This document shows positions 44,085-47,039 of a DNA stretch of 64,000 bases, piece by piece. Position numbers and translations under genes: made by a program. Under the pieces are notes generated by a model. That model did no database searches and was not told where the DNA came from. It saw only the letters and a list, made by a program, of their open reading frames with translations. Position 1 is the first letter of the stretch. Every line of letters begins with the position of its first letter. Source of the stretch: SAR86 cluster bacterium AG-313-N18 (GTDB lineage: Bacteria > Pseudomonadota > Gammaproteobacteria > Magnimaribacterales > D2472); NCBI GenBank assembly GCA_003283765.1, contig QBVY01000001.1, forward strand, positions 62,001-126,000. Direction: 5' to 3'.

Positions 44085-44501
44085 TTAAAGATCGCCATCT
44101 TTTCTGTGCTCACTGCGATCAACTTCAAATTTTTTACCATATCTTGCTTCAAGCTTATCCTGGTTTTCTTTAATCACTTCATATGGATCAAGCTTTAATG
44201 CCATGCAGGCTGTAGACCAATACCACATTATATCTCCAAGCTCTCTTTTCATATGAAAAATATTATCTTCTGATGCAGGTTTTCCCTGAAGAAACATCTT
44301 CTTTACGATTTCTACGAATTCGCCTGTCTCACTGCCTAATCCAAGCGCAGCTGTTAGCAGTCTTGCAGACTCTATTGGAGACGAGGAATCAATTTCCTTC
44401 ATGCGAGCATCTAAGCTGTTTTGATCCAAGCTTGGCTCACTTGTTAGCTTGGTAACAAAATCCCCATAACTATTTAAAAACTTTCTTGCTTCATCATTCA
44501 T
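44085..44501 (-). CDS. MazG-like nucleotide pyrophosphohydrolase
   Basis: TAALGLGSETGEFVEIVKKMF...HMKRELGDIMWY. Confidence 0.85.
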   Translation of the reverse strand: MNDEARKFLNSYGDFVTKLTSEPSLDQNSLDARMKEIDSSSPIESARLLTAALGLGSETGEFVEIVKKMFLQGKPASEDNIFHMKRELGDIMWYWSTACMALKLDPYEVIKENQDKLEARYGKKFEVDRSEHRKDGDL

Positions 44502-44513
44502 AAAATTCTCCTA

Positions 44514-45512
44514 TTATTTAAGTGGGCTAATCTTCCAATCAAGAGATTCAAGAAAATTAGATTCTGTAGCCTTTTCTAAATCTAGCACTACATTATTTTT
44601 TAAATCTATACCGCTAATCAGAGCATAGTCATCTAAAGACCTTTCATCGCCAAGGTTCATAGGCTCCTCAACTTTGCCAGCAAATAAGTCATTCAGTCTA
44701 TTTAAACTTTTTTTATCTAATTCTGTCCATTTTACTGCTCTCTTTTGATCATCTTCTGGATCCCAATGAAGCTTTCTAGGAATATTGCTTGTGTCAGTAT
44801 AAAGATGAAATAAAGGCGCATCAGGAATATGGAAAAATGAATATCCGCGAGTAAAAGCTCGCAATGCCATTGAAAGCTCCTCTCCATAGAAATAATAATT
44901 TGGATCATAGGGTATTTCTTTTACAAAAGAGCCCTTTGTAAAAATACAGCCTGCTGCCATTAAAATTGCATGCGTAATGTCTTTATATTTTGTTGGAATA
45001 CCTATTTGTCTGGAAAATGAGCCTTTGAGAAATAAGCTATCTTTTCTATAGGTAATAACTTGAGTATGTTTATCACCAGTATTGAGAGAGAATAAACCTT
45101 TTTCAAAATCCAGCACTTTAAAGCCTCGGGGATAAGAAGTAATAACTGGTTTTTTAAAATAATTATCATCTGATTGAATGGCAGAAATTTTTTCCAGCTG
45201 TTCAGTGAAAATTTTATCCCAGCTAGGTGCAAATTGAGTGTGAGAGTCAACCTGCAAGAAAAAGTCTTCTTCATTAAAAAAACTTTGAGCTCTGTGTCTT
45301 GCCCAGCATGGACCCTTAGAAAAAAGAGGATCAACATGCTCATAGTGGATTTGATTTGCAAAAGTAATTTCGTTAATTCTTATACCTTCGTCAGATTGAT
45401 CGCAAATACTAAAGACAAGGCTGTCTTTATCCTCAGCATTGTTATAAGCACTAAAAATTGTAGATACCAGCAAGGGATCTTGATAGGATGCGATTGAAAC
45501 AAATATACTCAT
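44514..45512 (-). CDS. GlcNAc family glycosyltransferase (Skp1 GnT1-like)
   Basis: IFVSIASYQDPLLVSTIFSAYNNA; KGPCWARHRAQSFFNEEDFFLQVDSHTQFAPSWD; start M12 of track ORF. Confidence 0.82.
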   Translation of the reverse strand: MSIFVSIASYQDPLLVSTIFSAYNNAEDKDSLVFSICDQSDEGIRINEITFANQIHYEHVDPLFSKGPCWARHRAQSFFNEEDFFLQVDSHTQFAPSWDKIFTEQLEKISAIQSDDNYFKKPVITSYPRGFKVLDFEKGLFSLNTGDKHTQVITYRKDSLFLKGSFSRQIGIPTKYKDITHAILMAAGCIFTKGSFVKEIPYDPNYYFYGEELSMALRAFTRGYSFFHIPDAPLFHLYTDTSNIPRKLHWDPEDDQKRAVKWTELDKKSLNRLNDLFAGKVEEPMNLGDERSLDDYALISGIDLKNNVVLDLEKATESNFLESLDWKISPLK

Positions 45513-45557
45513 TTTGTATGCGTTCTTTACTTGGTTAGCATACAATTATTTCTAGTT

Positions 45558-46196
45558 ATGAATACGGAATATCCAAAAAAAATTGCTGACAATGTCACCA
45601 TGTATTCAGCTGACCCTATTTTATATGTCGTTGATCATTTTCTCAGCAATGACGAATGTGATGCTTTTATAAAAGCATCTGAAGGCAAGCTGCAGCCCTC
45701 AACAGTCATAAGCCCAGATAAACACATACAACATGAGAGCAGAACAAGTGAGAATTGTTGGATAGAACATGATGCCAACGACATAGTCCATGAAGTGAGC
45801 AAAAGGTTTTCGATTCTAGTCCAGATGCCAATTAGAAATGCTGAGCAGTATCAGCTTGTTCATTATAAAAAAGGCGCTCAATACAAGCCACATTTTGATT
45901 CGTTTGACTTTGAAACAGAAGATGGAAAAAAAAATTGGGAGCCAGGCGGTCAAAGAATGATTACAGTTCTCGCATATTTAAATGATGTAGAGCAGGGGGG
46001 TGAGACCGGGTTTCCAGAGCTTGGCATCAATGTACCACCAAAAAAAGGAGATGCTGTAGTGTTTCACAATACTCTACTCAACGACGCAGCTACTCATCCT
46101 AAAATTAACCCAAGATCGCTTCATGGAGGCATGCCCGTCATTAAGGGCGAGAAGTGGATGGTTAATCTTTGGTTCAGAGAAAATCTAAGATACTAA
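45558..46196 (+). CDS. Prolyl 4-hydroxylase family 2OG-Fe(II) oxygenase
   Basis: YKPHFDSFDF (HxD), YLNDVEQGGETGFPELGINVPPKKGDAVVFHN, SLHGGMPVIKGEKWMVNLWFRE. Confidence 0.9.
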   Translation: MNTEYPKKIADNVTMYSADPILYVVDHFLSNDECDAFIKASEGKLQPSTVISPDKHIQHESRTSENCWIEHDANDIVHEVSKRFSILVQMPIRNAEQYQLVHYKKGAQYKPHFDSFDFETEDGKKNWEPGGQRMITVLAYLNDVEQGGETGFPELGINVPPKKGDAVVFHNTLLNDAATHPKINPRSLHGGMPVIKGEKWMVNLWFRENLRY

Positions 46197-47039
46197 TTAT
46201 TTTAGTTTTAAAGAATTCTGACTGGTGACAATATTGAATAAATGATCTTGCGCCTCTGGCTTTAGCTGAGCCACCCCAACCGCTAAAACATCAATGATCG
46301 CCATATAAGCCAATCGTGAGGTAAGCGGCCTGGTCAATCTAGCATTTTCCCCAACATCAATATCTAGCGAGATATCACATATTCTCGATAAAGGCGTATT
46401 TGATGGCATGAGCCCAATCACAATCACCCCAAAACTTTTAACTGTTTTAATGCTTTCAACCAAAGCTGCAGTATTTCCTGATTGAGATATAGCAACCACT
46501 ACGTCTCTGTCATTGAGAGAGTTTGCAGACATAAATTGAATATGAGGATCAGAAATACAAGAAGAAGGAATTTTGAGTCGGAAAAACTTGTGTTGTGCAT
46601 CCATGGCAATTGGCACAGATCCACCAAAAGCATAAAACTCAACCCTTTTAGCATTGGCAAGAGTTTCAATAGCTTCCTCAAGTGTTTCTTGATCAAGCTG
46701 CGATCTAACATTCAAAATTTCACTGATAGTGCTATCAAACACCTTCTCAGTAAGCTCTTGAATAGAATCTTCTGGATCAATTTCATAGGAATTAAAATAG
46801 TCATCTGCAGCAAGTTGTTGCGCAAGGGTTAGTTTGAATTTCTGAAAGCCATCAAAATTCACCGCTTTGCAAAACCTGATAAGGGTAGGCTCACTAACAC
46901 CTATTTCACTGGATGCTTGGGCAGTGGTGAGTTCAATAATTGCGCTTGGCTTGTTTAATATAAATTCAGCTACTTTAACCTCAGATTTTCTCAAGTTAGG
47001 CAGTGCTATTTTAATTTCTCTCAATAATTTAGTTTGCAT
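46197..47039 (-). CDS. MurR/RpiR family transcriptional regulator (HexR-like)
   Basis: N-terminal HTH ASSEIGVSEPTLIRFCKAVNFDGFQKFK; SIS domain VVAISQSGNTAALVES. Confidence 0.9.
   Translation of the reverse strand: MQTKLLREIKIALPNLRKSEVKVAEFILNKPSAIIELTTAQASSEIGVSEPTLIRFCKAVNFDGFQKFKLTLAQQLAADDYFNSYEIDPEDSIQELTEKVFDSTISEILNVRSQLDQETLEEAIETLANAKRVEFYAFGGSVPIAMDAQHKFFRLKIPSSCISDPHIQFMSANSLNDRDVVVAISQSGNTAALVESIKTVKSFGVIVIGLMPSNTPLSRICDISLDIDVGENARLTRPLTSRLAYMAIIDVLAVGVAQLKPEAQDHLFNIVTSQNSLKLK

Follow-up and report, generated by a model that had tools for sequence, protein, structure and literature searches.

The locus analyzed herein raises the question of whether two divergently transcribed genes of a SAR86 bacterium, encoding a glycosyltransferase (GT) and a prolyl 4-hydroxylase (P4H)-type oxygenase, act together on one protein. 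Both genes occur as a single copy in the draft genome (1.2 Mb), and their arrangement within the stretch of 64,000 nucleotides (referred to as the window) was as follows:

44085..44501, minus strand: MazG-like gene (PF03819, E=9e-8), which forms the conserved flank next to GT and lies 12 bp beyond the stop codon of GT
44514..45515, minus strand: PF11397 glycosyltransferase of 333 aa (Pfam, alignment of homologues, and predicted fold)
45516..45557, no strand: divergent intergenic region, 42 bp between the ATG codons of GT and P4H
45558..46196, plus strand: P4H-type 2OG-Fe(II) oxygenase of 212 aa (PF13640, P4H structures, catalytic residues, and predicted fold)
46197..47039, minus strand: RpiR-like regulator (HTH_6 and SIS; PF01418, E=1.2e-19), the conserved flank on the P4H side

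The divergent orientation and close spacing of the starts agreed with the first-pass annotation, whereas the proposed distance of 45 bp did not: overlapping TTG starts are also listed for the two ORFs (45545 and 45531), but since the homologues start with M(S/K)IF, the GT was assigned to 44514-45515 and P4H to 45558-46196, giving an ATG-to-ATG gap of 42 bp. This intergenic region is presumably a shared control region of both genes. The stop codons of P4H and the RpiR-like gene abut. We saw no other GTs next to the pair that might add further sugars.

The GT ORF contained the motifs IFVSIASYQDPLLVSTI, KGPCWARHRAQ, and FFLQVDSHTQF, and matched PF11397, a family named in Pfam for GlcNAc transfer, with an E-value of 3e-44 and a score of 152.4 bits, far over the curated cut-off of 21, confirming the family to which the gene had been assigned. 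Nearly all of the named close homologues were from SAR86 or unclassified marine gammaproteobacteria. In an alignment of 56 homologues, D90, H92, E212, E213, and H237 were invariant: the Asp and His of the DSH motif, both Glu residues of GEE, and one later His, which we take to resemble the metal and catalytic residues of GT27. The N-terminus, MSIFVSIASYQDP, immediately formed the first strand of the catalytic domain, and no hydrophobic segment was found there by eye; judged by its sequence, the GT is probably a soluble, cytosolic enzyme without a signal anchor, as is expected of Skp1 GnT1 (GT60). The AlphaFold2 model (pLDDT of 93.9) adopted a GT-A fold, and the nearest structures were polypeptide GalNAc-transferases (ppGalNAc-Ts; Z of 19.4-22.4), with a clear gap to the other GT-A enzymes, which trailed at Z of 16.7. 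The top match (Z of 22.4, rmsd of 3.4, and ~265 residues aligned) stopped at the catalytic domain; the GT possesses the GT-A catalytic domain of GT27, but not its C-terminal lectin domain. Because this fold resembles that of polypeptide transferases and the partner is a P4H, a protein is a plausible acceptor.

The ORF on the plus strand matched PF13640 (E=2.4e-17) and the sequence of CrP4H, the structure of which has been solved (2jig; E=2.6e-32), and the HxD...H...K set, consisting of the Fe ligands and the Lys for 2OG, was intact: H112, D114, H189, and K199. The proposed identity as a P4H-type 2OG-Fe(II) oxygenase was, therefore, supported by the profile, structure matches, and catalytic residues. 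The protein is predicted to be cytosolic. The best match of the model was the Chlamydomonas P4H in complex with (Ser-Pro)5 (3gze; Z of 29.5 and rmsd of 1.6 over 193 residues), followed by P4H from Bacillus anthracis (BaP4H; Z of 23.8), while the Z values for Pseudomonas PPHD (4iw3) and Dictyostelium PhyA (6t8m) were 18.1 and 15.9, respectively. No PHD-type prolyl hydroxylase was reached by the sequence profile at E<=10. By sequence and fold, this P4H belongs to the algal/collagen-type branch (CrP4H and BaP4H) and is not of the PHD type, to which the Dictyostelium and Pseudomonas enzymes cited in the first-pass annotation belong.

GT and P4H form a real two-gene module, which is conserved and co-inherited well beyond the genome of the window. 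A survey of the order (203 genomes) detected GT in 62 genomes and P4H in 90. In the family of the window (107 genomes), 45 genomes carried both genes, 58 neither, two GT alone, and two P4H alone; the both-or-neither state in 103 of the 107 corresponded to a Fisher p value of ~3e-25 when genomes were treated as independent despite their relatedness. The two genes were adjacent on one contig in all 45 two-gene genomes (gap of 12-63 bp), and a pairing confined to the window, the outcome that would have spoken against a module, does not hold. Three of the four single-gene exceptions (both GT-only genomes and one P4H-only genome) were contig ends, and in the fourth (G092), the place of GT was occupied by an unrelated 272-aa ORF matching the phage family phrog_2954. 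Most of the genomes were drafts or MAGs, and absence was mainly called where the site itself was read. One genome of a different family (G181, f3) was set aside because its cassette was located on a 3.5-kb contig of the type of the window's genus, probably through binning contamination. Adjacency as a mere consequence of wide synteny was rejected: some sites had these flanks but lacked the pair, and elsewhere the pair occurred with only some of these flanks. No earlier report of such a bacterial P4H/GT pair was found among open-licence papers.

The gene order at this site was UvrD, RpiR, [P4H, GT], and MazG, and the MazG-like and RpiR-like genes flanked both full and empty sites: in 27 relatives with an empty site, MazG directly followed RpiR. 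Between G108 and G122, there was a clean 1,684-bp difference from the RpiR stop codon to the MazG leader, within which no integrase gene was found. On the UvrD tree, we placed approximately 10 joint changes, each of which may be a gain or a loss of the pair (11 if one uncertain contig end is counted), with no single-gene change besides G092; this number may be too high or too low because UvrD is linked to the site and recombination there affects both. P4H and GT were still together in G140 and G142, in which uvrD was no longer their neighbor. The pair is gained, lost, and swapped as a unit, and is a dispensable cassette. The joint loss of touching genes is weaker evidence than that of distant genes because one recombination event suffices, and the argument for a joint function is carried by the absence of single losses together with the cyanobacterial pair and the association between P4H and the GT clade, both of which are described below. 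The variants of the RpiR-MazG junction comprised an empty site, P4H and GT, P4H and the phrog_2954-like ORF (G092), and a 309-aa NMO-like gene (G082 and G084). In SAR86A, a 229-aa ORF (L063:6762-7451) fused the start of MazG to the end of GT across unresolved residues, and is likely a partial duplication or assembly join.

Alleles were also exchanged within the cassette. In three genomes of the window's genus (G055, G058, and G073), UvrD and NMO were 96-99% identical to those of the window, whereas GT was only 49% identical; the corresponding values for P4H were 65, 68, and 94%, respectively. The GTs of these genomes grouped in a clade that included members of two genera (referred to as clade B; support of 99), whereas the P4H phylogeny largely tracked genera, indicating that GTs were swapped beside resident P4Hs. 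Arg replaced the first Fe ligand in the P4Hs of G055 and G058, and the whole catalytic set was missing from those of G086 and G087; the reading frames of all four variants persisted, and the GTs beside them were intact. The dN/dS values for G086/G087 were ~0.3 for P4H vs 0.07 for GT. P4Hs without catalytic residues were found beside four of the eight clade-B GTs and none of the 36 others (Fisher, 5e-4; ~0.02 when three events are distributed according to tree length), linking the status of P4H to the GT allele. Since an intact GT accompanied an inactive-looking P4H in four genomes, hydroxylation is not essential for every GT of this set. The simplest reading, based on few events, is that hydroxylation has become unnecessary for clade-B GTs, and this would in turn imply that it is still required by the remaining GTs (clade A).

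The pair was also sought outside the window's family. In SAR86 family f4, P4H was longer, with an N-terminal hydrophobic segment, and was located between UvrD and NMO, and GT was apart from it, between algH-like and gamma-glutamyltranspeptidase genes. In family f3 (G154), the P4H domain was found within a 484-aa protein (L080:4043-5494) with a long C-terminal extension and an N-terminal region similar to that of cyanobacterial P4Hs. GT was uncommon across the class, being present in 4 of 369 genomes, and a divergent P4H neighbor was present at three of the 25 other bacterial GT loci checked, all of which were picocyanobacterial (Vulcanococcus and a near relative). The Vulcanococcus pair had the same divergent layout and approximately 30% identity to the SAR86 pair, while ~15 GTs of the marine Synechococcus type had no adjacent P4H. 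In viral contigs (including L302-L459), PF11397-like GTs gave more than 500 matches in each of two scans; a profile search detected P4H within approximately 4 kb of GT at none of 158 viral loci, and an oxygenase-like ORF near one viral GT (L386) was not matched by the P4H profile. With the best viral GT match being 40% identical and no P4H at these 158 loci, a phage origin from a near relative was rejected. Other settings of the family were more diverse. In the giant phage XacN1, a PF11397-family GT adjoined a gene annotated as a carbamoyl transferase. Among four plasmid GTs (L244, L245, L240, and L241), some were inside type VI secretion loci (Burkholderia and Paraburkholderia), and others adjoined phage-tail-like genes or the gene for a calcium-binding protein in the vicinity of type I secretion genes; these neighbors may be the acceptors. 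In other bacteria (L156, L169, and L180), the PF11397 domain was fused to SET/Rubisco-LSMT-type methyltransferase, radical SAM/SPASM, or methyltransferase domains.

Several known systems share features with this cassette. A cytosolic prolyl hydroxylase and a soluble PF11397 GT also constitute the Skp1 pathway of Dictyostelium and Toxoplasma (PhyA and Gnt1, GT60), from which the SAR86 system differs in that P4H is CrP4H/BaP4H-like rather than PHD-like, and in that it is an exchangeable, allele-swapped bacterial cassette. GT shares the fold, the DSH motif, and the conserved His and Glu residues with the GT27 polypeptide GalNAc-transferases, but has no lectin domain, is not secretory, and is only about 12-18% identical. 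P4H resembles Chlamydomonas P4H-1 and B. anthracis P4H in fold, catalytic residues, and sequence (about 35% identity), but is paired with a GT gene; an N-terminal anchor is absent from the P4Hs of the window's family and present in that of f4. The two-step logic of the synthesis of plant and algal hydroxyproline-rich glycoproteins (P4H and hydroxyproline (Hyp) glycosyltransferases) is similar, and the type of P4H is as in algae. These plant and algal pathways use other GT families. Moreover, they modify secreted cell-wall proteins (PMC8724618), whereas both SAR86 enzymes appear to be cytosolic.

We tentatively favor, at somewhat less than an even chance, a function in which the cassette modifies a cytosolic protein, with P4H hydroxylating proline and GT then glycosylating the same protein, likeliest on Hyp. 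P4H would hydroxylate one or more prolines, consuming O2 and 2-oxoglutarate with Fe(II), and GT would then transfer a sugar, most likely to the hydroxyproline. The donor is probably a UDP-sugar and the product an alpha-linked HexNAc; the protein acceptor, its being common to both enzymes, the linkage to Hyp, and the donor sugar are all inferred. Against this reading, GT occurs without an adjacent P4H in family f4 and marine Synechococcus, and the GT and P4H alleles reassort. The two enzymes may instead act on different residues of the same Pro/Ser/Thr-rich protein, P4H on Pro and GT on Ser/Thr; we regard this as doubtful, even though the nearest predicted fold is that of Ser/Thr-specific ppGalNAc-Ts, clade-B GTs are intact beside P4Hs without catalytic residues, and the cyanobacterial pair adjoins a gene whose product ends in a long (PT)n stretch, because a degraded P4H was never found beside clade-A GTs (0/36). 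Furthermore, the Hyp-GlcNAc transferase acting on Skp1 in Dictyostelium and Toxoplasma, which is classified in GT60, is itself described as a relative of the mucin-type initiating enzyme (PMC8724618 and PMC6939170), and, thus, Ser/Thr and Hyp acceptors are not distinguished by the fold.

The hitch-hiking of two unrelated accessory genes in one variable site, with no joint function, would account for the 309-aa NMO-like gene, or P4H plus the phrog_2954-like gene, being carried at the same site, and recombination in the flanks moves both genes together; this is unlikely in view of the lack of single-gene loss in ~10 changes, the recurrence of the pair with the same divergent layout in cyanobacteria, the association of P4H decay with a GT clade, and the persistence of the pair in G140/G142 after rearrangement. 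A non-protein acceptor (surface glycan, lipid, nucleotide, or DNA) that is also the target of the oxygenase is compatible with the carbamoyl transferase gene in XacN1 and with many PF11397 members in phages and secretion loci being of unknown function, but appears quite improbable: the best fold match of GT is to polypeptide transferases, its partner matches protein hydroxylases in sequence and fold, and glycan-biosynthesis genes were not seen in the immediate surroundings of the pair. EF-Tu is constant and essential, which does not fit a cassette that is dispensable, absent from over half of the family genomes (58 of 107), and different between near relatives (G108/G109 vs G122), with GT alleles exchanged between genera. 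The hydroxylation and glycosylation of EF-Tu as an oxygen sensor, a possibility suggested by the first-pass annotation, is, therefore, very improbable, although Pseudomonas PPHD acts on EF-Tu (PMC7864055) and the title of PDB 5v7y, a P4H close in fold, states that it modifies EF-Tu.

Other substrates of the favored hydroxylation and glycosylation were considered. Pro-Thr repeats are the kind of sequence on which algal P4Hs act, and in Vulcanococcus limneticus (L164:1979-4048), the gene convergent with P4H encodes a FecR-like protein that ends in ~100 residues of (PT)n; this single-genome lead makes it a candidate substrate. In the window's genus, RNase E (L279; contig C25 of G000, about 2826-2917) has a C-terminal (PAPT)n tail, but was rejected as the substrate because this tail is limited to that genus and is absent in the other cassette-bearing SAR86 genera examined. 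General Pro-rich repeats were also rejected; they did not follow the presence of the cassette, being found whether or not a genome carried it.

The exchange of GT alleles across genera suggests a target under diversifying pressure, e.g., from phage or grazers, and not a constant oxygen sensor. It is possible, but well short of probable, that this is the first bacterial Hyp-glycosylation system, an exchangeable P4H and ppGalNAc-T-like GT in which different GT alleles redirect the modification of a variable protein or change its sugar, and clade B has become independent of hydroxylation. The pair may represent the bacterial counterpart of a pathway for marking proteins that has mainly been described in plants, algae, and protists, and it gives a bacterial context to PF11397, a family found in more than 500 viral contigs without a known function. 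If the proposed function is correct, the sugar on hydroxyproline would no longer be solely a eukaryotic trait, cassettes varying between near relatives, together with natural P4H mutants, would offer a ready comparison for finding the substrate, and abundant ocean bacteria would use an oxygen-dependent protein mark.
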